A stretch of 39,034 nt of DNA from an uncultured Ignavibacteriota bacterium (GTDB lineage: Bacteria; Bacteroidota; Ignavibacteria; UBA10030; UBA8401): positions 1 through 39,034 of the forward strand of contig CAIOTF010000044.1 in NCBI GenBank assembly GCA_903861125.1, written 5' to 3'. Of the stretch, positions 6,097 to 24,154 are shown in pieces. The translations under genes were made by a program, and so were the position numbers. A model generated the notes under the pieces. That model searched no databases, was not told the DNA's origin, and worked only from the letters and a program-made list of their open reading frames with translations. How positions within the stretch are numbered: the first letter of the stretch is position 1; the number at the start of each line of letters is the position of its first letter.

Positions 6097-7767
6097 TTAT
6101 TTTATTTTCACTTTAAATTCAACGGATCCATTCGCATTGGCAGACAGTGTGCCGATGGAAACCGCGATGACAGAATTATTACTTTGATCCATGGTAACCG
6201 AAACTCCGCTTGTATTATCAGAAACGGATACTCCGTTTACTTTTACACTGTTTGGAATATATTTTGTAGCATTCGGTGAAACATCTATCACTGAAAAATC
6301 TTTCACAGCAGCTTTACCGGTGTTCGTATATGATATTGTATAGGTTATGACTGATCCGGCCGGCTGATTCCCTATCGGAAAGGCGCTTATGTTGATCGCG
6401 ACAACCGGTACGCTTATGGTCGATATAGTCAAGGTGTTATCGGATGCTGCATGGTCCCCCGCTGAAGAAGCTGAACATTGCAATGAATCTTTCACCTGAT
6501 CTGTTTCAAATCGGGGCAGAACAGCCATAGCAAATACACGGACGCTGTCTCCGGCGGCTACGGAATCAATGTCCACACCGGCAGAATCATTTGTATTCGT
6601 CAACAATTGATCAGCTGAATCCCATACGCCATTGTTGTTCGCGTCACGGAACAGTTTCCACGGAATGTTCTGTGATGACAGCGTTGACAGTTCAATGAGG
6701 TCTTTGAATGCACCAGTATTACGCACGTTGTATCTAAACGACGCTGTATCGGATGCTTCCTTCGTCAATGATGAAAACATCGGGATGATCTGAACGCCAT
6801 GAGCCGCTTTTCCGCTTACCGTCATTGAAACTGAATTCGTTAAAACTGAATATGCATTGGATGCAACCGAATAGCTCACACTAAATCTATTTGCAATGAT
6901 GGCTCCGGTTGTAAATCCAGAACTCAATTGTACAGTAAGCGTTACCGTAACCGATTGCGATGGAGCCAATGATCCGATAGTCCAAACTACCGGATTAGCA
7001 CTGCCATTCAGCACTCCAGTCGAGGCTGTACCGGAAATGAATGTACACCCGGACGGAATCACATCGTAGATCGAAATGTTGTTGGCGGATACTGAGCCGG
7101 TGTTCGTCATTGAAAATGTATAGATAACTTGTTGTCCTGCCGAAGGGATCGAATTATTCACTATTAATCCCGGGTTCAACGGATTCAAACCGGATGTGTG
7201 AACAGTAGTTACATAATTCCCTGAAATTGTACTTGCCGTATCGTAGAGTGATTCGATGATACATACAGCGGTATCCTTTGCACCGTTCAATGATTCATTT
7301 CTCGGTACTTTTACCCGAACGATTATCGGAAACTGAGCGTCTGCAGTAATTATTGGAGTTTGAGCAATTGTTCCTGCACCTGCCTCGCCTGCCTGCAATA
7401 TGCCGTCTCCATTATTGTCGGCAAAGATTTGTGTTGACCAACCTTTTGATGAAAACGCTGTAAGTTTTGCACGATCATTACCGTTGCCTGAGTTTATCAC
7501 GATAATCGGATAATCTGCTTGCGTACTGTCGCTTTGTGTAGTTAGTGCATTCGAGGCAGGCGTTATATTAAATACCGCTTTTTGAGCTACTGTAATGCTG
7601 ACGAATGCAGAATACACAGTATCAACCTGAGACCCGCTACTGGTTGTGTACGTTACTCTTGAACGGTTTTGAATAACAGTGCCGGCAGGAGTTCCAACTG
7701 CAAATACATTTTCCTGCAGCAGAAGAAAACTGCCAATGATTAATATTCCCGAAAATATTTTTTTCAT
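6097..7767 (-). CDS. Secreted DUF11-domain protein, 556 aa (paralogue of the 21392-23125 product)
   Basis: ATG at 7767 gives a typical signal peptide, MKKIFSGILIIGSFLLLQ...NVFA, with the mature protein beginning VGTPAGTVIQN. A GTG at 7776 would add three residues; neither start has a clear ribosome site. The protein is a chain of about four Ig-like beta-sandwiches of the DUF11/TIGR01451 type (e.g. FSMTNTGSVSANNISIYDV). Two EF-hand-like loops, DNNGDGILQAGE (complement of about 7387-7424) and DANNNGVWDSAD (about 6606-6650), are potential calcium sites. The N-terminal 100 residues parallel those of the first gene of the operon (GTPAGT..., F.ITPAS, ...NSGNGND). The C-terminal module ends NGSVEFKVKIK, a pattern shared by three other products of the operon. 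Probably a structural surface or periplasmic component; function inferred only. Confidence 0.88.
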   Translation of the reverse strand: MKKIFSGILIIGSFLLLQENVFAVGTPAGTVIQNRSRVTYTTSSGSQVDTVYSAFVSITVAQKAVFNITPASNALTTQSDSTQADYPIIVINSGNGNDRAKLTAFSSKGWSTQIFADNNGDGILQAGEAGAGTIAQTPIITADAQFPIIVRVKVPRNESLNGAKDTAVCIIESLYDTASTISGNYVTTVHTSGLNPLNPGLIVNNSIPSAGQQVIYTFSMTNTGSVSANNISIYDVIPSGCTFISGTASTGVLNGSANPVVWTIGSLAPSQSVTVTLTVQLSSGFTTGAIIANRFSVSYSVASNAYSVLTNSVSMTVSGKAAHGVQIIPMFSSLTKEASDTASFRYNVRNTGAFKDLIELSTLSSQNIPWKLFRDANNNGVWDSADQLLTNTNDSAGVDIDSVAAGDSVRVFAMAVLPRFETDQVKDSLQCSASSAGDHAASDNTLTISTISVPVVAINISAFPIGNQPAGSVITYTISYTNTGKAAVKDFSVIDVSPNATKYIPNSVKVNGVSVSDNTSGVSVTMDQSNNSVIAVSIGTLSANANGSVEFKVKIK

Positions 7768-8905: not shown

Positions 8906-11900
8906 TTAATTTATAACGACTTTATATTCAATACTTCCATTCAATCCTGGCGTAATGGGAACACCCAGTAACGTTCCCAAATTTAAGTTGATAACGGAAC
9001 CTACCGTTATACCTGCCGACAGATCGGGTTTTGGTGTTCCATTTACTTTAATACTGCCAGCCGCATACGTTGTGAGAGCCGGGACAGGTGCACTGATGAG
9101 TACATTGGCAGCAATGCCATCGCCTGTATTATTATACGTAATAGTATATATCACAGTATCTCGAGGTCCAGGATTTGCAGCACTTGCTGAAAGTGATAAT
9201 GTTACATTCGCTAATGTTTTACTAGAAAGAGAATATTTTCCATCGGTTGTAACATTATCCCATTGAACCCAATAATTTATCGAATCAAGCGATGATACGC
9301 CCATTCGGTCCCACACACCCGGTGATGACTCATGCCATAATTTTAATGTCGACTTAAAATTGGGATTCACAACTTCCGCCCCTTCATAATGCAGTCGATA
9401 AGCATACGTATATCCTGAACCGCCGGCGAATGAAAGTGTGTAATAACGGTTAATAGGTTCCATGTACGTATTAACACCCGGTGATGAAAGCACAACAGTT
9501 TCTGTTATTGATGCGGGCAGCGTTCCACCGGCATTAAAGTTTATAAAATTATTCGGACTTTCAAACGCATATTGTGAACCGGAAATGAATCCTGCGGTCG
9601 GAGTATGTGTGATCGTTCCGATTATTAACCCATTACCGCTTCGACTGGACGTTATCGTTATTGCATTACTGCCTGTTTGTATTAGACCTTGATTTACTGC
9701 AAGATCTGCAACGGTAACATCGCTCGACAAAGTAACAGCAGCGGAAGGATTATTCTTCTTCACTTCAAGCGCTGCAAATGATACAGATCCATTGATAGCC
9801 GAAGCCGATGAACCTCCAAAAACAATGCGTGACGCTGATGATGTGAAATTTCCTGATGCCGTCCAATTTCCATAAACGGTATCAGTAGTTGCTGCAGCAT
9901 TAAATGTTGCTCCCGAATTGATCGTCAGATCGTTCCAGACACGTATTGCGCTTGACGGAGTTTTTATACCACCATTAGAAAAATTGATGTTGTGATAGAC
10001 GAATGTCGGCACAGTTTGATCGCTTGAACCGTTAAAGTCTATCGTCGATCCTGTGCTAACGTAGTTACCGCTGCTGAAAGTTGCTGATGGATTAAAAACT
10101 CCTGCTATTCCTATTGAAGGACTCGAAGCAAGTGTAATGTTTGCCGATCGTGCTCCGCTGATAGTGAGATTTTGATAATTAAAACCTGCTACGGTTTGAG
10201 CGCCTGTTCCATTATAATCAATTGTTGAATTTGTCATTATATAACCGCCGGTACCAAATGTTGCTGCGGGAGTGAATGTTCCGGCGATCCCAACGGTTCC
10301 ACCTGAAGGAAACGTTACTGAATTGGAGCCAGTACGTGTTCCGGAAATGCCTACGTTAAAATAATTCGATCCCTTTAATGTTTGGCTACCGGTTCCACCG
10401 TATGTAACGGTATTATTTAATGCGCTGACTGTCAACGTACCCATCGAGAGAAGATCCTGTAAGATAGTTATTGATGCACCGGTATTGTTGATAAGCGTTG
10501 AACTGGCTGCCCCGCCGGTTACTCTCGTAACAGTCATTGAGCCGTTATTCGTCACTGTTACCGCAGAAGCAATATCAATTTGATACAAAGATGTATTGGA
10601 CGTGTTGAATGTTTTATTATTACCTGAAATCTGCAATACCGCCGTACCGTTTGTTACACCATTCGTGCCGTAGAAAATATCGCTGCTTATTGTGTTCCAG
10701 ACAACAGAACCAGAACCGCTCCAAATACCGCTTAACAGCATGCTTCTATTCAATGTCAACACCTGACCATTATTATTAAATGTTCCACCATTATCAATAG
10801 CAAGATGATTGATGGAACGCGCATCTGTTAGTGTAACAGTATAAGGCGCTACAATAAGCGCCCGGTCACGAGGCTGTGGAATCCGGTTTTTATTCCATGT
10901 TGTTGGTGCATTCCAATTCCCATTGGCGAAGGATGTAAACGTCATTGAGTCAGGCTTCCCCGCCTGGAAAATTCCAAATGCCGTAAGAGACACACCCTGG
11001 ATTGAAGTTAATGACGGCGAACCGACATTTACTTCTGTCCACATTAAAGGAACCGTATTTGTTTTATTCGCTATAATGATATCACCCACATATGTAATGC
11101 TGGCACTTATTTCGTTTGATGACCAACGAAATGTCGGTGTAAAACTAGTCAATGGTACACCATTATTGCTCATAGTCCAATACCGATGTGCACTTGAATC
11201 TCTTTTGAGAGAAGAGTTCAGAATGTCCGGATGATCACCTGTTATGCTGCCCACCGTAATACTACCTCCTGTTGCGCTGACTCCGGAAAGAGATACATTC
11301 ACTGGAAGATATAGGGTTGAATTTCCCAATTCATACGTAAGATTTACCGTACCTGTCGTGCTAACATATTTTTGTAAATTTCCGAGAATGTAACCATTGG
11401 TACGGGATATGGTGCCCGGACTGACAATATAGACCGTATCAGACACTGAAGTAAGTATTCCATTTGTCAATGTCAGTGTACCATTAATGACGGGTCCATT
11501 CACAACTGCCGCACCAAACGCATCATTCAATTCAAGATTTTTATATGTACCGGCACCGATGAGTTGGTGCGTAGAACTGCCGCTTGTCAGTAATATTTTT
11601 CCGCTTCCTGAATGAACGCCGCTGTCGCAAACACTTCCTTTTACGGTAATCGTAAAACCTCCGTCGGCAAAGGTAGTGCCCGAACCGATGTTCAAGTTTT
11701 GGTTTACAGTTAAGGCATTAGCAGCAGTTTTAGTAGAGCCTCCGCTAACAGAGAGTCCATAATACGCAAGAACCGGAATAGTTTGAATACCGGCGGAGGT
11801 ATAACCCACTGTTCCGCCGCTTAGTGTAAGCACACCCGTGACAGTCGGGAATGTATTTTGAGTATTAAGTTTGCCGTCGGTCATAGTAAAATTCCCGCTC

Positions 11901-14900
11901 GCACTCAACGTGTTGGAAGGAAGGATTTTGATTACCAATGATGTATTTCCGATGGTGATATTTTTGCACACTGCCGCTGTGTTGACATCAATCGTATCGC
12001 TGCCATTCAAAATAACATCGTTTGATATTGTCGGAATATTTAGGAGATTCCAGTTATTGACATCAGTCCACAAATGATTGCCTGCTAAACCTGACCAGTA
12101 GAAAATTGTTGTCTGTTCTCCGACGGCAAAATCACCAAACATGTTTAAGCCATCGACTCTGATACTCGTTGAACTTCTTGATGTAACGGTGGGAGTTGAC
12201 CATGCTGAGGATGCATATCTTTTAACAAAGAAAAATGCGCTGTTAGCACCGGCATCAATATCCGTTGCATCAAAATTAAAGGTAACATTATAGGTCGTAA
12301 AGACTATGTCCTGTTTGAGCAGTGTCCATGTCCGGTTTACACTTTTAGTCGGAGAAATTCCCGATCCGTTAATATTTGAATGGTCACCTGCCGTTGATGC
12401 CGCCGTTAGGGTTCCCGCTGTTGATACAGCATTAAAATTAACACTGACCGGAGTATATTTTGTTAAATCTCCTGTTTCAAAAAGTATTGTCTGCGGTGCT
12501 GCATTGACCGGCACCGGTTTTCTGACCGTACCAAAAATATGTCGCGGTAAACTGTTCGCTGCACGTTCAATGGTTCCGCTTGTACCGATGACAAGTGTAT
12601 CAGCTCCCAGGGAAACAATTCCGCTCGTCAAAGTAAGAACACCGTTAATACGGAGATATCCTGACGCTGTAATTCCGTTCGCATCATTAAGATCCATATT
12701 AGTATATGATCCGTTTCCACTCAGACTATGAGACGAAGAACCGCCGGTAACAAATACTTTTCCAATACCGGTATGAGTCACATTATTGATAATGTTACCA
12801 TTCACAGTGATCGTATAAGCACCATCAGCAAACGAACCAGCAAGCAACGATAAATTCCCGTTCACAGTCGTATTTCCTCCAAGCGTTTTTATTCCGCTTC
12901 CGCTTGTTGTTAAATTATTGTATTGAAAGGCGGCAATCGTTTGCGCTCCGCCATTGTAGTTGATTGTATCACCTGTTATGGTGTGTCCTGTTGCAGATCC
13001 CGGCGTAAAACTACCAGCGATAGTCATTTGAGCCGCAGGAAGAACTTTTTTGAAATTCGAGAAACTAACATCCCCGTATGCTGCGGGAATAACAAGTTGA
13101 CCATCAGATGCTCTATTATATATCACAAGTCCGGATATTCCGCTATTTAGATTTCCACTGCCCGTATATGCAACATTATTCAACGTTAATGTGTTGGATC
13201 CAATGCTGAATGTGCCTTTCAATAATTTCAACGAGTCGGTCACAGTAACACTTCCGGTCAATGTTAATGTCCCCAACGAATCGAGATTCGTCAGTTTGTT
13301 TACTGTTGTCGGCAATCCATTACCTGTCTGCTGGGCAACAACTCCGTTATAAATATAATTTGCACCCGTACCAAAAGTTCGGCTGCCTGTGAGTTGTATA
13401 TTACCTGTGGCACCGGAACTTGTAATGCCGACGGGAGAACCGAGACTGATTGTAGCGCCATCCTGCAAAGTAAAATTACCTGATCCGGTAATGGTGCTGG
13501 TTCCAAGAATAAGAGATGCGCCATTCAAAACTGTAAAATCAATGTTCCCGGTAATGGTTCCGCCCGATGTGTATTGTTGCGAAACTGGAAGCGTGCCGTC
13601 AAAGATTATACGACCGCGGCCCGATGAGGTTTGGTCAATAATTCCTGCTGTATGACTGAAATCTTTTGCAGCCCATATCGTATCAATTGCGGCTGTTGAG
13701 CTCAAACGAAGTGTTCCTCCTGATACTTTCACTATTCCCGCCGCATCAATCCCCATTACTCCGCCTGTGCCTGATGAAAGAGAAAATAATCCGCCGCTGA
13801 TAACCAAACTGTCCCCAAGCGTGATTCTCGACCAGTCGGAAGCGCTGCCGGATATACCGTTCACTATACCACCGGCCACTATCATTGATCCGCCGATCGT
13901 TTTCATTCCTCCTGCATTAAAAAGTTGGATTGACGATGATCCTGTACTGGAAACAACAAATCTGCCGGAAATTATGCTCGGTGCTCCGCCAAGAGAAATC
14001 GGATTTGTTTGTAATGCGCAATTCCAATAAAAATTTCCAAAGGACTGGTTAAGATTACCGGGTGCGGTTGTAATTGAACCTGTTATTTCACACGTCGAAG
14101 TAGAACTCCAAGAGGCAACCGGAATATTCCCGCCGGCAATAGCATGCTGATATGTAGATCCATTCACAAAAGAAATTGACGCACCGGAATTTACAACAAT
14201 ATCATTTCCGTTGTTTGTAAGAATACCGCTCACCGTCAAGTCGGTGCTTGATCCATCACGCACCGTCAGTGTCTGTCCGCTGCTGACAACAATTTTTGCA
14301 CCCGTTTGAACACTTGCCTGATCAACAACAATATCTACCGGAATAGTAACAATATCACCGCTTTGGATTGTTATCACGCCGGCATTTGTAGCAATCGGAT
14401 AGACAGTTGTATCGCGCCATGTTGCTATGAGAGGATTATAATATTGCCAGATGGTTGGCGAATTCCAATTTCCCGTACCGGTTCCGCTCCCTTTTGTACG
14501 GTACGCATTGGCATTACCGTTAAATCCGACCACAAAATCGCCAAAGAGATGTGTTCCCACTGCTCTGATTGAATTCACTGTTTTTGTATCTGCCATGGTA
14601 GTATCCCATGTGCCTCCGGCGTAGCGTCCAACAATATACAATCCCTCGTTTCCGGCAACATCTTGATCTCCGGGGTTCACCCATTGAAAAACAATATTGC
14701 ATGTATCGAACCCAACGGACCCATTCGTCAATGTCCAATATCTATTTACACTATTCGTCGGGTCTATACTTGATCCGGCCACTTGAGGATGATCGCTTTG
14801 AGTGGTAGAGACAGTAACCGTGCCGGCTGTTGATATTGTTCCGAATGCAAGTGTGGCCGGAGTGTATTTCGTTCCATCACCGACAGCAAAAACCAACGGT

Positions 14901-17900
14901 GAAGATCCAATCGGAATATACCGCTGTAGTATACCATTAATCCAACTGGATGAAGAAGACGAAAGTGTTCCCGTCACATCAATCACAACTTTATTCGTTG
15001 CTACAGTCGGATTGATGACACCTGATGTAAGTGTCAGTGCACCTTTGATGATAAGATCACCGCCGGCGAAGGTTGCACCGAGTGCATCATTCATGATAAG
15101 ATTAGTAAACGTGCCTGTTCCTGAAATTACATGTGAAGACGAACCACCCGCAAGCGTGATGTTCCCGCTTCCTGAATGCGTTCCGTTATTGATGATATTT
15201 TTTTCCACACAAACAGTTGCTCCGCCGTTATCCATGATCACACCGGTAGCAATTTTAAGGTCTCCAAATACCGTATCGATGCCTGCAGAAAATGTTTTAG
15301 TCCCGCTTGCAGACAGTGTTAGATTATTAAAATTGAAGACAGGAATCGTTTGAGTGCCGCTCCCGTAGAAACTCACTGTACTACCGGTCACCGTATGGCC
15401 GCTTGCGAGACCGCTTACAAAGGTTCCGGCAATTCCTATGGAATCAGTAGACGGCAGAGTCTTTGTAAATGCTGAAAGTGATAAATTGCCATAATTTGCC
15501 TTCAATATATTTTGTCCATTACTGGATTTGTTATAGCTGACAAGTCCCGAATTACCGCTTATCAGAGTGCCTCCGCCATTGACAGGTCCGTTTAATGTCA
15601 ACGCATTCGCACCTATATCCAATGTCCCGGATGAAAGAGAAAAAATATCGGTAACAGAAACATTAGAACCCAGAGTAAGCGTGCCTGAAGATTTTGCTAT
15701 CGTAAGTTTATTGAACGTTTCACCAGACGCGCGTGTCACACTTTGAGCAGCACTTCCGTTGAATGTTACCATTGCTGTCGACGGCGTAAATGAACCAGTA
15801 TTAGTCCACGTTCCACCAACAGTCATATTCTGACCGTTTGCATTAAGAATGCCCCCGGAATTATCGACGTTGCCGCGAACCGTCAACGGGTAGTCTTTGA
15901 GGACAGCCGTAATTTTGCTGTCATAAATATTTAAATTATTGATTGGTATGTTGCTTTTGATATTCATGATCTGCGATGCGGGCGATGAAGCATTTCCGAG
16001 CTGCAGCGTTCCGCCGGACACAGTATACACTGAATAGAAATAATTCGTATAACCAAGCGAGTCAACACCGGTTGCTGTTCCTTTTTGCTGAAGGACAAGC
16101 GTTCCTCCGGATTGATTCAATTTTGAACCGGAGACAAGCATAGAGAAAGGGGCATACGTTGTATTATTGCTCCCCATTGTATTGATTGTTACTGTCCCGC
16201 TCGACATTGTCAGATCTGTAACGGTATAATTATCTTTGGGAATAAATCCGCCAGCAATATTCACCGTTCCGCCGTTAAAGACAATTTTTCCGCCGTATGA
16301 AATAAGATGATTGTTAACTGCATTACCGGCATTCAATGTACCGGCTGTTACGATCAGATCACCCATCACATTCAGTGTACCGCCGGTAGTATTGACGATA
16401 GCTGATGAATTATTGATGAACAATCCGGCACTGATCGGTATTGTATAGGTTGCTGTAAACGGTGTTAAAGTTGCTGCCGTTGATAATTTAAATGTGCCAT
16501 TCGTCAGCGTCAGGAAATTATTTGGTGCATTAAAATTTGATGGAAAGACATCAAGAATATTACTTTTCGAACTCCCCATGTTCAGCGTCATTAGATTAAA
16601 ATGTGTCGTCGGTCCGTTTCCGCTTATTGACAGTGAACCTGCTTTTGTAAACGTAACGTTGCACACTCTGCTTGCAGCAGGAAACAGTTCCAAAGTTCCA
16701 GCATTGGTGATATTCCCTGCTATCGTCATCGTATGTGTTGCATTATTTGAAGCATTCACAGTAAATGTTGCTCCCGACTGGATATCCAAATTTCCGGCTA
16801 TCGTCACCGCCCTTGCTGTTGTATTGTTGCCGATGATCAGCGTTCCGCTGCTCCCCTGACCGACAGTTAAATCAGAAACCTGAATATCTGTATTTATCGT
16901 AACTGTATGTGCATTGTTAATAATCACTTTGGAATATGCTGTAGGTACGCTCCCTCCAACCCACGTCGATCCTGTGCCCCAATTTCCGGTTCGCGCTGAT
17001 ATAAACTGACTTGCCGCAACTGTAGTCATGCTTCCAGATAAGGCCGAACTTAATGAACCTACTGTTAGTGCATATACTCGCCAATAATATGTTGTACCAG
17101 GAACAAGATTTGTTTCTGCAGACGATGTGGTATTGGCCGCGAGCTGTCGGACAAAATTATATGATACCCCGCCATCATCCGAACGATAGATCACGTAACC
17201 GACTTCACTGCTCGCATTATCGTTCCAGGTCAACGTCATTCCTGTTGTAGTCACTGCGGAAAATGACAGATTGGTCGGCGCTGCCGTTGGCACAACCGGA
17301 GTAAAAGTAAATATAGAGTTTGCTGTTGGAACTATTGTCAGGTTATTCTGCTGCACAGCCGAAAATGATGTTGAGTTTGCTGTTTGCTGAATCAACACCT
17401 GCCCTGTTGTAGGAGGATTGCTGATCGTTGGACCGCTCATACCAATAGTATAACCGTTGGTCGGACTTGCCGCCCAATCAAAGGTCCCTTGAGTCATAGT
17501 GCTATATAAGAATTCAATTTTTCCACTTGATTCATATAGCTTTAACTGAAAATTGAAATTCGGTGTTGTATTTGTCCAGATCGCCATGCGGATCCATTCA
17601 ACAGTCAGCACACGGTTCGGTGCAGTACCGGTAACCTGATACTTTATGCTGCCGCCTAAAGGATCCAATTCTCCCTGAGTGGTTAGATCATAATAGAATG
17701 GTGCAATTGCAAGCACTGTTCCGGCATCACCGGACGGTGCTGAACGTGTACTGGATGAAAGATCCTGATCATATGGACCAAAAGCCCAATTAGAACGCGT
17801 ACCTGTTCCCGGACCACCGTCGCGTGTTGAATTTGAAAAATCTATGAATCCATTTGTCGATACACTGAACATCGTGTAGCGTTGCCCTATATAATAGAAA

Positions 17901-18151
17901 TCAAATCCTATCGGTACTTGAAAGCTCCGGTTGTCATCTTCTGTTGAAATGCCGGCGTTGCGCCATGAAAAAATCGCATCACCGCTGTATTCGATAGAAT
18001 TATAGACAATAGTACCGCTTGTAATAGAATAGTTCGCAAGACCCTGTCCAAAAAGAAATTGCATTGAACCGGTGCAGAACAAGGCAATGCACAACAGTAA
18101 TGTTCGTTGCTTCAACGTTGCGTGAAAAAATATATTAAATACGTTTTTCAT
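8906..18151 (-). CDS. Giant secreted repeat protein / putative adhesin or fibre, 3081 aa
   Basis: The signal peptide ends near residue 35 (..SMQFLFGQ). A beta-rich N-terminal domain (about 36-290; contains FDFYYIGQRYTMFSVSTNGFI) is of a type common in FCB secreted proteins. A fibronectin type III domain follows (about 293-378). Then come four large units, each opening with an NW..(P)T.W-type motif near residues 384, 1225, 2014 and 2409. Each continues as G/S/T/N-rich right-handed beta-helix-like strands (recurring 'GAQTVAGFNYQNLTISG' type). Each closes with a beta-sandwich carrying NRYWTL-like signatures (starting near 1090, 1892, 2276 and 2850). The last about 100 residues are a DUF11 module ending NGSIEYKVVIN. 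No Por/T9SS C-terminal sorting domain, LPXTG or autotransporter barrel is visible. The 9.2-kb frame is uninterrupted. It lies 18 bases after the barrel gene. Best read as a long extracellular stalk or adhesin; ligand unknown. Confidence 0.9.
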   Translation of the reverse strand: MKNVFNIFFHATLKQRTLLLCIALFCTGSMQFLFGQGLANYSITSGTIVYNSIEYSGDAIFSWRNAGISTEDDNRSFQVPIGFDFYYIGQRYTMFSVSTNGFIDFSNSTRDGGPGTGTRSNWAFGPYDQDLSSSTRSAPSGDAGTVLAIAPFYYDLTTQGELDPLGGSIKYQVTGTAPNRVLTVEWIRMAIWTNTTPNFNFQLKLYESSGKIEFLYSTMTQGTFDWAASPTNGYTIGMSGPTISNPPTTGQVLIQQTANSTSFSAVQQNNLTIVPTANSIFTFTPVVPTAAPTNLSFSAVTTTGMTLTWNDNASSEVGYVIYRSDDGGVSYNFVRQLAANTTSSAETNLVPGTTYYWRVYALTVGSLSSALSGSMTTVAASQFISARTGNWGTGSTWVGGSVPTAYSKVIINNAHTVTINTDIQVSDLTVGQGSSGTLIIGNNTTARAVTIAGNLDIQSGATFTVNASNNATHTMTIAGNITNAGTLELFPAASRVCNVTFTKAGSLSISGNGPTTHFNLMTLNMGSSKSNILDVFPSNFNAPNNFLTLTNGTFKLSTAATLTPFTATYTIPISAGLFINNSSAIVNTTGGTLNVMGDLIVTAGTLNAGNAVNNHLISYGGKIVFNGGTVNIAGGFIPKDNYTVTDLTMSSGTVTINTMGSNNTTYAPFSMLVSGSKLNQSGGTLVLQQKGTATGVDSLGYTNYFYSVYTVSGGTLQLGNASSPASQIMNIKSNIPINNLNIYDSKITAVLKDYPLTVRGNVDNSGGILNANGQNMTVGGTWTNTGSFTPSTAMVTFNGSAAQSVTRASGETFNKLTIAKSSGTLTLGSNVSVTDIFSLSSGTLDIGANALTLNGPVNGGGTLISGNSGLVSYNKSSNGQNILKANYGNLSLSAFTKTLPSTDSIGIAGTFVSGLASGHTVTGSTVSFYGSGTQTIPVFNFNNLTLSASGTKTFSAGIDTVFGDLKIATGVIMDNGGATVCVEKNIINNGTHSGSGNITLAGGSSSHVISGTGTFTNLIMNDALGATFAGGDLIIKGALTLTSGVINPTVATNKVVIDVTGTLSSSSSSWINGILQRYIPIGSSPLVFAVGDGTKYTPATLAFGTISTAGTVTVSTTQSDHPQVAGSSIDPTNSVNRYWTLTNGSVGFDTCNIVFQWVNPGDQDVAGNEGLYIVGRYAGGTWDTTMADTKTVNSIRAVGTHLFGDFVVGFNGNANAYRTKGSGTGTGNWNSPTIWQYYNPLIATWRDTTVYPIATNAGVITIQSGDIVTIPVDIVVDQASVQTGAKIVVSSGQTLTVRDGSSTDLTVSGILTNNGNDIVVNSGASISFVNGSTYQHAIAGGNIPVASWSSTSTCEITGSITTAPGNLNQSFGNFYWNCALQTNPISLGGAPSIISGRFVVSSTGSSSIQLFNAGGMKTIGGSMIVAGGIVNGISGSASDWSRITLGDSLVISGGLFSLSSGTGGVMGIDAAGIVKVSGGTLRLSSTAAIDTIWAAKDFSHTAGIIDQTSSGRGRIIFDGTLPVSQQYTSGGTITGNIDFTVLNGASLILGTSTITGSGNFTLQDGATISLGSPVGITSSGATGNIQLTGSRTFGTGANYIYNGVVAQQTGNGLPTTVNKLTNLDSLGTLTLTGSVTVTDSLKLLKGTFSIGSNTLTLNNVAYTGSGNLNSGISGLVIYNRASDGQLVIPAAYGDVSFSNFKKVLPAAQMTIAGSFTPGSATGHTITGDTINYNGGAQTIAAFQYNNLTTSGSGIKTLGGNTTVNGNLSLLAGSFADGAYTITVNGNIINNVTHTGIGKVFVTGGSSSHSLSGNGSYTNMDLNDANGITASGYLRINGVLTLTSGIVSLGADTLVIGTSGTIERAANSLPRHIFGTVRKPVPVNAAPQTILFETGDLTKYTPVSVNFNAVSTAGTLTAASTAGDHSNINGSGISPTKSVNRTWTLLKQDIVFTTYNVTFNFDATDIDAGANSAFFFVKRYASSAWSTPTVTSRSSTSIRVDGLNMFGDFAVGEQTTIFYWSGLAGNHLWTDVNNWNLLNIPTISNDVILNGSDTIDVNTAAVCKNITIGNTSLVIKILPSNTLSASGNFTMTDGKLNTQNTFPTVTGVLTLSGGTVGYTSAGIQTIPVLAYYGLSVSGGSTKTAANALTVNQNLNIGSGTTFADGGFTITVKGSVCDSGVHSGSGKILLTSGSSTHQLIGAGTYKNLELNDAFGAAVVNGPVINGTLTLTNGILTSVSDTVYIVSPGTISRTNGYILGNLQKYVSTTGTVNLTYELGNSTLYLPVNVSLSGVSATGGSITVGSITGDHPDILNSSLKRDSSAHRYWTMSNNGVPLTSFTPTFRWSSNEISASITYVGDIIIANKTNTVPLMWTEVNVGSPSLTSIQGVSLTAFGIFQAGKPDSMTFTSFANGNWNAPTTWNKNRIPQPRDRALIVAPYTVTLTDARSINHLAIDNGGTFNNNGQVLTLNRSMLLSGIWSGSGSVVWNTISSDIFYGTNGVTNGTAVLQISGNNKTFNTSNTSLYQIDIASAVTVTNNGSMTVTRVTGGAASSTLINNTGASITILQDLLSMGTLTVSALNNTVTYGGTGSQTLKGSNYFNVGISGTRTGSNSVTFPSGGTVGIAGTFTPAATFGTGGYIMTNSTIDYNGTGAQTVAGFNYQNLTISGARSANITLASSPSIGIAGVFNPSATFSSGNYVSTGSTIDFNGSSDQTVPTFVYHNINFSNGGIKTPSSAIRVWNDLTINSGATFNAAATTDTVYGNWTASGNFTSSASRIVFGGSSASAINGSVSFAALEVKKNNPSAAVTLSSDVTVADLAVNQGLIQTGSNAITITSSRSGNGLIIGTITHTPTAGFISGSQYAFESPNNFINFNAGGTLPASITETVVLSSPGVNTYMEPINRYYTLSFAGGSGYTYAYRLHYEGAEVVNPNFKSTLKLWHESSPGVWDRMGVSSLDSINYWVQWDNVTTDGKYSLSSKTLANVTLSLSASAANPGPRDTVIYTITYNNTGDGIAANVLISAPVPALTTYAAGSIKVNGTPKPDLSAGITVGSVINLNLGTLLGVPITPGLNGSIEYKVVIN

Positions 18152-21391: not shown

Positions 21392-23125
21392 TTATTGAAT
21401 TGCTACTCTATATCTATACACTTTTGTTCCAAGTGCAGGAATCGTTGTAAATGTTACGGATACTGTTCCTGATGAAACTGCAACGCTACCACCTGCGAAT
21501 GATGTGCCATCCGTGATGGGCGTGATTTCAAAAACACCATCCCAATTCGCATCTACTTCAAGACTATTTGTCACATAGGCATTTTTGTTTCCGACTGTGT
21601 GAGCTGTGAGATTTGAAGAAACAACAGATGTTGCGCTTCCTGTGCCCGAGTTTGTGATCCGTACGATGTAATAAATAATATCACCCGGATACGGATTTGC
21701 TGCTGTGCCATAATTTCCGGAAGCAGCACTGTCGGACATTGCGATTGTCAACTGCGGTGCCGTAACGGTTGTTGTGATGGTATTCGAGGATGCTACCGTT
21801 CCGCTTGTCGGAGCAGTAAGTCCGCTCAGTGCAGTCGCGGTAACAGTGCGAATAATTGTCTGCGCATCAGATGCAGTGCCCGGAACAACAAAACGAACAT
21901 AATATGTAGCAGTAACGCCTTGTCCTATCGTGACAGGCTGACTAACGGCGCTTCCGCCAACTGTCGTGCTGTACACCGGTAATACATCTAAATCACCCGC
22001 TGCCTGAATATCGCTTAAGGTATACGTATCCGACGCATTCCCTGTATTCTTTACAGTTACCGTGTAATCAACATTGTCACCCGGATTACCGGACGTGTTT
22101 GCTGTTGAGCGTGCAAGCAATGCTCCTGAAGCGCGGCCAACAACAAATGCTGTCGGTGCCGAAACATTGGTGAAGAGCGAATTCGTACCGTCGTTGTAAT
22201 CTACTTTTGATCCGGCCGAACCGTTTGTGATCGTGGTACCGGCAAGTACGCCTGTCCCATTTGTTGATGACTGTTCAATCACCGCTGTTACATTAAGAGT
22301 TACAGTACCGGTAGCTGCGATCACTGAAGGTATCGTCCACGTAGCAGTTCCAGCTGAAGCAGATTGTGTTGTACCGCCCGTAGCAATTACTCCGGTCAAA
22401 TTCGTCGCGTCATACAACCATGTTACAGTTGATGAACCTGATGTAGCTGAGTGACCGGTATTGGTGATTGTCAAATCAAACGATTGAGTCTCTCCCGGAA
22501 TTTTATTTGCACCGTAGGCAGGTGTAACTGAAAAACTCAACACCGGTTTTGCAATTGTTATTGTCCAAACGTAGGTCTGAGCAATTCCGGGGTTAAGCAC
22601 AACAATATGTGCCGGCACCGAATTTGCAGCAGTTGATGTTGCTGTCAGAGTAACAGCATTGGAAAGGTTATCTGCTTCACTCGCGGGAATCACAACTTTT
22701 ATTTTTCCGCTGAATGAGGAACCTGCTGTAAGAAGTCCTGAAGATGATACTGGTGTTACGCCGTCCGTTGCAACAATGGATGACGTCCAATTACCGTACG
22801 AGCCTGGCATGGTCAAGTTGTATGTATCGTCGCCGTTTCCATTGTTAGTAACAGTAAAAGCCTGCAACACTGTTACACCATCAACGGTATTCAGTACCGC
22901 CGATGCAGGTGTAAAGTCGATAACTATTTTCTGTCCAACATAAATTGTGAGAATATTGGACGTTGCTGAACGAACATTGCTGCCGGCATTATAACTGACG
23001 CTGGCCTGGTTAGAAATTGCAGTACCTGCCGGAGTTCCAGCGGCGAATGATAATTGCAACGAAGAGAACAACAATGTTGCTACTATTGCTGCTCCAAGTC
23101 GAGAGAACATTTTATTGTTCTTCAT
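21392..23125 (-). CDS. Secreted DUF11-domain protein, 577 aa; first gene of the surface operon
   Basis: The ribosome site AGGGAG lies 8 bases before the ATG at 23125. The signal peptide MKNNKMFSRLGAAIVATLLFSSLQLSFA is followed by a mature start AGTPAGTAISN, a motif typical of DUF11 surface proteins. About four tandem Ig-like DUF11 sandwiches follow: residues about 55-150 (AFTVTNNGNGDDTYNL), 190-320 (DLTITNTGHSATSGSS), 330-440 (DYTVTVKNTGNASDTYTL) and 450-577 (YYIVRITNSGTGSATSV). It ends KVYRYRVAIQ, like the ends of three other operon products. It is very rich in Thr, Ser, Val, Ala and Gly and nearly free of Cys. It is the leading gene, has a strong ribosome site and A-rich leader, and is followed by a hairpin. 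It is therefore the best candidate for the most abundant (subunit-like) component, as inference. Confidence 0.88.
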   Translation of the reverse strand: MKNNKMFSRLGAAIVATLLFSSLQLSFAAGTPAGTAISNQASVSYNAGSNVRSATSNILTIYVGQKIVIDFTPASAVLNTVDGVTVLQAFTVTNNGNGDDTYNLTMPGSYGNWTSSIVATDGVTPVSSSGLLTAGSSFSGKIKVVIPASEADNLSNAVTLTATSTAANSVPAHIVVLNPGIAQTYVWTITIAKPVLSFSVTPAYGANKIPGETQSFDLTITNTGHSATSGSSTVTWLYDATNLTGVIATGGTTQSASAGTATWTIPSVIAATGTVTLNVTAVIEQSSTNGTGVLAGTTITNGSAGSKVDYNDGTNSLFTNVSAPTAFVVGRASGALLARSTANTSGNPGDNVDYTVTVKNTGNASDTYTLSDIQAAGDLDVLPVYSTTVGGSAVSQPVTIGQGVTATYYVRFVVPGTASDAQTIIRTVTATALSGLTAPTSGTVASSNTITTTVTAPQLTIAMSDSAASGNYGTAANPYPGDIIYYIVRITNSGTGSATSVVSSNLTAHTVGNKNAYVTNSLEVDANWDGVFEITPITDGTSFAGGSVAVSSGTVSVTFTTIPALGTKVYRYRVAIQ

Positions 23126-23248: not shown

Positions 23249-24154
23249 TTATTTTTTATTATTTATTGATAATGATTTTATATTCCGAAATTGCATTGAT
23301 TCGATTTCTGCAAACGAACTGCAGAATGTTACATCGTCCATTCCCTTAACTATTTCGTTGTTGAACGCCTCTCCACCAACGATACAGTGCGAACCGCTTG
23401 ATTTTGACAATTCGGCAATTATTTTCAACTCTAATGTCAGTTGTTCTGCATTTGCTGTGAATGTCGTGTACATACAAACAGCAAACGGTTTCGTGCGGAC
23501 AACAAACTGATTGATTTCTTCAGCATTGATACCTGATCCCAAATTCAAAGCGGTATAGCCATTCGTTTCAAGCATTGTGGCAACTGCCGCCAATTCGATT
23601 TCATTCTTTCCATTCTCAACTGATGCACAAACAATTATTTTATGATTTCGCTCGTGCCTTTCAGCTGTATCATTTAATTGAATAATGGCAGAGATTAAAA
23701 CATTCTTCGCTAGATGAAATTCGCTCACGGACAATTTATTTTGAGAAAGCAGTATGCTGAGTTTCTTCGCCGTCGGCTTCACTACGTTGTCGAATAATGC
23801 GGTGACCGATAATCCTGCACTTAAACACTCCGAAAATAATGTGAGTATCTCCTGCTTCTTTCCTTTTATGGCACCGGAAAAGCAGACTGAGTGAAGCACA
23901 TTGAATTCTTTTTTCTGCACGATCGAACGGAGAATCATTTCATCACTTATCAACTGTGGAAGCGCTTTATCAGTTTGATTTCCGTAATTGTTCTCGGATA
24001 TGAAATTGTATAAATCCTCGGACCGGAATTTTCTATGTCCACCGGGTGTGCGGAAACATTTCAGTATTCCTTCATCAGTCCAGCGCTTTACCGTTGATTT
24101 ATCAACACGTAAAATATTTGCAGCATCATTGGTGGTGAATAATACTTCTGCCAT
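23249..24154 (-). CDS. CarH-like transcriptional regulator: HTH plus degenerate B12-binding domain, 301 aa
   Basis: The start at 24154 has GAGGT upstream. Residues 4-52 are a MerR/excisionase-type helix-turn-helix (FTTNDAANILRVDKSTVKRW...GGHRKFR). Residues about 70-165 match the helical cap domain of CarH/LitR-type sensors. Residues about 172-290 are a Rossmann-like B12-binding fold (IIVCASVENGK...LNLGSGI). In CarH-type proteins the fold carries DxHxxG, whose His binds cobalt. Here the aligned segment reads G182-K-N184-E-I-E187, so D, H and G are all changed. The cap's W-x9-EH signature reads L135-x9-E145-F146. It therefore probably does not bind cobalamin through this His and may sense something else or nothing. 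It lies 123 bases upstream of the surface operon in the same direction, so it is the likely regulator of that operon. Confidence 0.88.
   Translation of the reverse strand: MAEVLFTTNDAANILRVDKSTVKRWTDEGILKCFRTPGGHRKFRSEDLYNFISENNYGNQTDKALPQLISDEMILRSIVQKKEFNVLHSVCFSGAIKGKKQEILTLFSECLSAGLSVTALFDNVVKPTAKKLSILLSQNKLSVSEFHLAKNVLISAIIQLNDTAERHERNHKIIVCASVENGKNEIELAAVATMLETNGYTALNLGSGINAEEINQFVVRTKPFAVCMYTTFTANAEQLTLELKIIAELSKSSGSHCIVGGEAFNNEIVKGMDDVTFCSSFAEIESMQFRNIKSLSINNKK

Follow-up and report, generated by a model that had tools for sequence, protein, structure and literature searches.

The minus-strand reading frame at positions 8906-18151 of the window, by which is meant the whole stretch of 39,034 nucleotides analysed, encodes a protein of 3081 residues (P3) that has an old, repeated make-up of rods and knobs and closes in an incomplete DUF11 domain. 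The window spans contig C44, part of a 4.19-Mb genome, from end to end. The reading frame and its repeats had been pointed out in an initial annotation; the functional lead, absent from it, is the incomplete domain at the C-terminus of P3 together with the operon that surrounds the gene. At chances that we put close to even, and if anything slightly below, P3 is the giant tip or a side arm of a surface fibre produced from this dedicated operon, in which split domains would be joined by strand complementation.

Rods and knobs of P3

P3 opens with a signal-peptide-like start (judged by eye) and an N-terminal domain (aa 37-290, 17282-18043, on the minus strand like all P3 features), which is 47-78% identical across 8 relatives and, by its presumed position, is the putative distal tip. 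A fibronectin type III region follows (aa 291-375, 17027-17281; PF00041 at 35.4 bits, cut-off 25), and then four units: unit 1 (aa 376-1216, 14504-17026; knob aa 1068-1212), the opening of which is weakly G8-like at a score below the Pfam cut-off; unit 2 (aa 1217-2014, 12110-14503; knob aa 1869-2014), with a predicted beta-helix rod; unit 3 (aa 2015-2400, 10952-12109; knob from aa 2252), which is short and varies among relatives; and unit 4 (aa 2401-2982, 9206-10951), with a knob of a second class at aa 2840-2979. The incomplete DUF11 domain, referred to here as the C-half, occupies aa 2993-3081 (8909-9175) and reaches the final residue. A plus-strand ORF of 183 aa (14802-15353) lies antisense within the P3 gene, and is probably a by-product of composition.

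Four long units of one kind had been proposed from the knob motifs SVNRYWTL, SVNRTWTL, SAHRYWTM and PINRYYTL, which are present at aa 1134, 1937, 2320 and 2899, respectively. Four units are indeed found, but they are unequal in length (about 841, 798, 386 and 582 aa) and knob 4 belongs to a different class; likewise, the NW...TW openings ascribed to the units were located at aa 389, 1227, 2025 and 2411, with the exception that unit 3 has an LW...NW variant. Homology of the four units is borne out by Smith-Waterman comparison, where all six unit pairs beat both 100 shuffles and the reversed partner. Units 1, 2 and 3 are strongly alike, scoring 978 for units 1 and 2 (shuffle maximum 192, reversed 208), 436 for units 1 and 3 (133 and 119), and 465 for units 2 and 3 (136 and 118), with unit 4 being the weakest (303 against unit 1, with controls of 159 and 176; 268 against unit 2, 155 and 179; 194 against unit 3, 128 and 109). 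The parallel between units 1 and 2, for which SGLVSYNKSSNGQ (aa 868) and SGLVIYNRASDGQ (aa 1673) had been cited, extends beyond the approximately 350 residues originally claimed, since the alignment path runs over aa 388-1209 against aa 1226-2011, at an identity of 48% over 284 aligned rod-end residues and 36% over the whole unit. When P3 was compared with itself, blastp listed no off-diagonal pairs and phmmer on windows of the protein listed many.

The knobs were also recovered by a profile of 23 rows from relatives, none of them from the window, although the rows were gathered iteratively from a starting profile seeded with window knobs 1-3. Knobs 1-4 score 123.8, 143.1, 85.6 and 96.6 bits, as compared to -0.7 bits for the next best site in P3, -2.1 bits for the reversed sequence, and a maximum of 6.7 bits in 300 block shuffles. 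Candidates for the knob among known domains were rejected, as seven Pfam families each match only one of 25 rows (best E 0.015), and the single match by PDB sequence has an E-value of 0.72.

An old duplication with intact unit order, as had been suggested, is supported by a knob tree of 27 rows. Two classes are split at 100/100, namely an internal, NRYWTL-like class in units 1-3, and a terminal, INRYYTL-like class in unit 4 and in all knobs of the relatives G008 and L042. One clade (96/90) unites the second-unit knobs from six genomes, another (99/98) the third-unit knobs of the window and L040, and the first-unit knobs fail to resolve as a single clade. These clades indicate that the unit duplication is older than the split of these genera, and that the order has been kept. 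The number of units, a comparison proposed in the initial annotation, varies between three and four: among seven readable P3 proteins, window included, four knobs are found in three (the window, L040 and L074/G010) and three knobs in four (L037/G012, L045/G003, L025/G009 and L041/G011), where L040, L041 and L074 consist of several ORFs or are cut by contig ends. Contig-end fragments of P3 (L036, L038, L039 and L044) were excluded from these counts, and G008 and L042 were kept apart because their units are of the second class throughout and are cut by contig ends. In G008, the P3 position (L024 6549-18839) is taken by a protein that measures 4097 aa or more and bears at least four knobs of the terminal class, spaced 893-896 aa apart, in units that are 43-52% identical; these near-equal units of about 895 aa represent unit amplification. 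L042 has at least two terminal-class knobs.

The rod was modelled with AlphaFold2 over P3 aa 1217-2400, using seven alignment rows. The mean pLDDT is 72 for the whole model and about 87 for the rod of unit 2 (aa 1217-1856), the best structural match of which is the beta-helix domain 7jvi (Z 13.6, 286 residues, 4.5 A). Further structural matches include tailspikes, adhesins, autotransporter passengers, and some beta-helix lyases, and Foldseek alone gave no match for this rod at E<=0.001. The model supports a right-handed beta-helix for the unit 2 rod. Of the beta-helix rod with periodic globular knobs that had been envisaged, the helix thus stands as a prediction for unit 2, while the number of units is variable. 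The two knobs in the model contain strands, mostly at a pLDDT below 50, and the beta-sandwich given for them in the initial annotation is a candidate fold.

The operon and its predicted large barrel

P3 is one of six genes, P1 to P6, that share one direction, all on the minus strand. P1 (21392-23125, 577 aa) has an N-half, as described below, at aa 29-75 (22901-23041) and a C-half at aa 477-577 (21395-21697), whereas P2 (18170-21319, 1049 aa) has an Ig-like part at its N-terminus together with what is predicted to be a very large barrel of the outer membrane. On the other side of P3, P4 (7816-8889, 357 aa) has a C-half at aa 268-357, P5 (6097-7776, 559 aa) has both an N-half at aa 28-75 (7552-7695) and a C-half at aa 470-559 (6100-6369), and P6 (1346-6085, 1579 aa) carries five DUF11 stretches, SdrD_B, and a C-terminal OmpA domain (aa 1477-1571). 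Upstream of P1, a regulator gene on the minus strand (23249-24154) with a MerR-type HTH and weak B12-binding-like domains below the Pfam cut-off is kept in six relatives (L045, L025, L041, L042, L043 and L040), and is perhaps a signal-dependent switch of the operon.

The order P1-P2-P3-P4-P5, with P6 next, is conserved in G012, G009 and G003, although in the case of G003, P2 reads as three ORFs and P6 is seen only as a 1586-aa frame. Within the close set, P2 is present in 12 of 21 genomes, and it recurs in 13 of 148 genomes of a phylum sample; the named relatives that bear it are assemblies from metagenomes, under the labels Ignavibacteria(les), Bacteroidetes/Bacteroidota and, in one case, Chlorobiaceae. 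A second arrangement, P5-P6-P2, is found in L046, L048, L052, L054 and L055. In 11 of the 13 matches of the phylum sample, P2 is embedded in a longer ORF, of about 2400 aa, and all three such ORFs that were read (G083, G156 and G110), of a distant family, are P6N-P2-OmpA fusions preceded by a DUF11-tailed gene of 904-931 aa and followed by a giant DUF11 gene. The giants of G083 and G156 have a C-terminus no more than 2 residues from the DUF11 tail match, and that of G083 carries a Pfam beta-helix region. Gene doubling was also observed, with two P5-type genes in G012 (590 and 1163 aa), G003 and G010 (loci L037/L021, L027 and L074), and two P1-type genes in G012 and G011 (loci L037/L021 and L041).

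Relatives of P2 were also noted in 25 plasmid records. In each of the five records opened (hosts Acinetobacter haemolyticus, Synechococcus sp. NIES-970, Eleftheria, Sinorhizobium and Nitratireductor), the P2 relative adjoins DUF11 or OmpA or SdrD_B parts or forms a fusion with them, and the P2 family is found in Bacteroidota, Proteobacteria and Cyanobacteria. The plasmid-borne barrels of loci L086-L090 go by the annotations TonB-dependent receptor, DUF11, OmpA family, or hypothetical protein; these barrels of Proteobacteria and a cyanobacterium may be a single family that bears different names.

P2 has no Pfam family over the cut-off, and its best match by sequence in the PDB is only 0.044. 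Its model is weak (pLDDT 69, pTM 0.48), with 41 strands of at least 7 residues between aa 252 and 1039 by a manual DSSP count on that weak model. Foldseek returned beta-galactosidases, on the Ig-like part, and barrels such as SprA at a TM of 0.3 or less. The model aligned best with FimD (Z 17.0, 333 residues, 7.6 A), but AlgE and SprA are within 1 Z, and the fold is too unspecific to identify P2 as anything narrower than a very large barrel. In P6, OmpA closes the protein of the window and is over the cut-off in seven of ten further proteins (L046, L048, L052, L054, L055, L072 and L074), being followed by another stretch in the first five, those of the second arrangement. OmpA over the Pfam cut-off is absent from the other three, those of L021/G012 (L021 1276-5601), L026/G009 (L026 201-3782; 17.2 bits) and L077/G008 (L077 1688-6445), and anchoring through OmpA would therefore not be a general step.

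Complementary ends of the operon proteins

The tail of P3 is of the DUF11 type by TIGR01451 (29.5 bits against a cut-off of 24, aa 2988-3039), this being the one DUF11-type match over the cut-off in P3. The same incomplete DUF11 half closes P1, P3, P4 and P5, in each case running up to the last residue. With a C-half profile of 21 rows from outside the window (best reversed match 10.1 bits), the gap to the protein end is 0 in 32 of 33 cargo proteins; for the 12 cargo proteins that are not among the profile rows, the gap is 0 in 11 and 2 in one. Internal DUF11 domains are followed by a strand with the motif N.[AV] in 36 of 42 cases (34 of 40 in an earlier count), as compared to a mean of 14.2 and a maximum of 25 in 1000 shuffles, and 52 terminal DUF11 domains end ahead of this strand. 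Among the terminal domains found, none ends 7-44 aa before the stop. ORFs with an identical last 60 aa were collapsed in this analysis of DUF11 ends, as well as in the N-half and isopeptide analyses. In its own genome, the C-half profile has 8 matches, all on C44 (four ends, one inside P5, and three in P6).

The strand that the tails lack stands at the start of partner proteins, clearly so in P1 and P5 and less strongly in P6-type and fusion proteins. Directly after the apparent signal peptides of P1 and P5, the N-halves of the window read GTPAGTAISNQASVSYN and GTPAGTVIQNRSRVTYT. An N-half profile, made from 17 relatives' P1/P5 after exclusion of three non-window P1/P5 whose first 110 aa do not contain the search motif, matches P5 aa 28-75 at 3.5e-23 and P1 aa 29-75 at 1.1e-22, where E-values, as in the knob and C-half scans, are those for a single sequence and the N-half search covered 362 sequences. 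The profile gave no match at E<0.05 in P2, P3 or P4 of the window and none in the giants of the distant family, and the start of the window P6, VPNTIILNQAKALYQ, matches only at E 0.053. At E<=1e-3 there are 65 matches, 46 of which are N-terminal. Thirteen of these 46 belong to P6-type or fusion proteins, five of them at E<=1e-5 and the other eight between 5e-5 and 6e-4, which is modest for 362 sequences. The remaining 19 are internal, although one (L024, aa 113) counts as internal only because the start codon lies early, and is in truth N-terminal; 7 of the 19 directly follow a scored DUF11 domain at the preset interval of -6 to +14, and 13 do so at -10 to +14, an interval widened after the data were seen. 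In the reverse test, the last strands of internal DUF11 domains reached at best 17.8 bits against 222 N-termini, and 10.1 bits against 4440 shuffled N-termini. The N-half profile has three matches in its own genome, again all on C44 (at the start of P5, at the start of P1, and once within P1).

Both halves accompany P2 in the close set of genomes. At E<1e-9, the C-half tail is present in 12 of 12 genomes with P2 and in one of the nine others, at a contig end (Fisher table 12,0,1,8; p about 4e-5), and the N-half in 11 of 12 and none of nine, respectively (Fisher table 11,1,0,9; p about 3e-5), the genomes being related, so that neither p is a true probability. The twelfth P2 genome, G001, has a P1 that is truncated where the contig stops; G004 has two weak N-half matches in a P5 that is cut by a contig end. 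Two plasmids of Alphaproteobacteria encode, next to P2, a DUF11 protein that ends without such a tail. Away from the operon, G009 has a second P3-like protein on its contig C2 (L075 3915-8852; 1646 aa) with one knob and a terminal DUF11 tail, an arrangement which may mean that the tail acts in trans.

In chaperone-usher pili, donor-strand complementation fills an incomplete Ig-like domain with a strand from the N-terminus of another subunit. The operon is similar in having an incomplete Ig-like domain, a partner N-terminal strand, and a barrel whose model is nearest to FimD, but it differs in that the incomplete domain is C-terminal and of the DUF11 type. The halves are complementary at the level of sequence, and by Pfam none of the six operon proteins contains a PapD-like chaperone or usher family. 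Judging from these ends, the N-half of one operon protein would complete the DUF11 C-half of another in a donor-strand fashion. The existence of C-half-only, both-halves and N-half-like proteins then suggests a distribution of chain ends, whereby P3 and P4 (C-half only) would be tips, P1 and P5, each with a half at either end, would serve as links, and P6, with its N-half-like start, five DUF11 stretches and, in most, an OmpA domain, would be the base that holds on to peptidoglycan. P2 would pass the proteins across the outer membrane and hold the base, an association suggested by the fusion of the corresponding parts in the distant family. We infer the order of the fibre, its export through P2, its surface location and its adhesive use from this arrangement.

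The isopeptide Lys and Asp are absent from the window tails of P1, P3 and P4, and P5 keeps the Asp. Covalent isopeptide links are thus not expected for the tails of P1, P3 and P4. The tails of L046, L054, L055, L078, L083 and L084, on the other hand, retain both residues, and covalent chains are possible in lineages of this kind.

Rival readings and relation to known systems

The tail of P3 resembles DUF11/CLIPPER domains (PF01345, TIGR01451) in scoring over the TIGR01451 cut-off, and differs from them in being terminal in ending before the last, Asn-bearing strand, and in lacking the Lys and Asp of the Lys/Asp/Asn triad. It could be argued that the C-terminal DUF11 domains are nonetheless complete stalk domains, and that the N-terminal hairpin is part of the first domain of P1 and P5, with no exchange between proteins. 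Pfam borders are conventions, the N-halves of P1 and P5 continue into further domains, and DUF11 domains without an isopeptide bond are reported in PMC12617251. However, the full-length Pfam DUF11 (114 positions; L083 aa 176-293 matches 1-114) includes the Asn-bearing strand, and the triad Lys715-Asp748-Asn806, given in that paper, links an early Lys with a late Asn within one domain; the spacing suggests that this Asn is the Asn of the N.[AV] strand. In addition, P3 and P4 lack an N-half and P6 lacks a terminal C-half, an arrangement indicative of complementary ends, and we regard the reading without exchange as doubtful. The proposal that P3 is a secreted beta-helix enzyme, such as a polysaccharide lyase, with no structural role is very improbable: while beta-helix lyases and tailspikes are among the structural matches of the unit 2 rod, so too are adhesins and autotransporter passengers, the Pfam scan of P3 found no enzyme family above the cut-off, and repeated units of varying number suit a rod.

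A more familiar route would be export of P3 by the ordinary T9SS, the DUF11-like end being an unrecognised variant of the C-terminal signal and P2 having another job. The genome encodes SprA (C42, 1069 bits), and at least 150 T9SS C-terminal signals were counted in its 4.2 Mb (150 of 232 candidates scored). Elsewhere in the genome, the knob profile has six matches, in five proteins (C43, C4 twice, C16, C9 and C17), and the three knob proteins that were read to the end (C43, 2409 aa; C4, 1243 aa; C17, 1538 aa) all carry type A tails over the cut-off. Signals of types A, B and C are described in PMC10202324, type A being Ig-like. The operon therefore shares with the T9SS a C-terminal Ig-like tag, a very large barrel, and the same knob and rod modules. 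Yet none of the 150 scored tails lies on C44, NCBIfam gave no T9SS tail at E<=0.1 in the six operon proteins (for P6, among the best 25 of 43 matches), and neither TIGR04183 (type A) nor TIGR04131 (type B) is listed for P3 at that threshold; SprA, moreover, is encoded by a separate gene and, at 2308 aa, is more than twice the length of P2. The co-occurrence of the tail with P2 also argues against export by the T9SS, as do the P2-DUF11-OmpA neighbourhoods on plasmids from Proteobacteria and one cyanobacterium, hosts beyond the phyla in which PMC11285876 describes the T9SS. Thus, export of P3 by the T9SS appears unlikely, and, since knobs are common to T9SS-tailed proteins and the end of P3 differs, P3 is better described as a T9SS-style passenger with another end.

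Two-partner secretion is not indicated, as Pfam found no TPS domain in P3 and no POTRA in P2. The GhpA/GhlA grappling-hook proteins, as presented in PMC13319060, are giant surface proteins with DUF11 domains, as is proposed for P3, but GhlA is an array of 49 such domains, whereas P3 has a single one over the cut-off and a rod predicted to be a beta-helix. No description of the P1-P6 system was found in open-licence PMC papers.

More broadly, we tentatively propose, as a possibility that falls short of an even chance, that an unnamed outer-membrane pathway exists in which a P2-family barrel and an OmpA anchor build DUF11 fibres by head-to-tail complementation of split domains, with beta-helix giants as tips and covalent isopeptide bonds where Lys and Asp are kept, in parallel to the T9SS and reusing its passenger modules by a swap of tags. 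When giant repeat proteins are met in uncultured bacteria, annotation usually goes no further than a hypothetical adhesin. In the present case, the protein ends suggest a concrete rule by which several products of a single operon may be joined, and they indicate, as the likely exporter, a barrel family for which Pfam scanning yielded no model. If this is true, it would represent an assembly principle for outer-membrane fibres beside the T9SS, chaperone-usher and two-partner secretion pathways, and a single genome would route its rod modules to either of two destinations by a change of tail.
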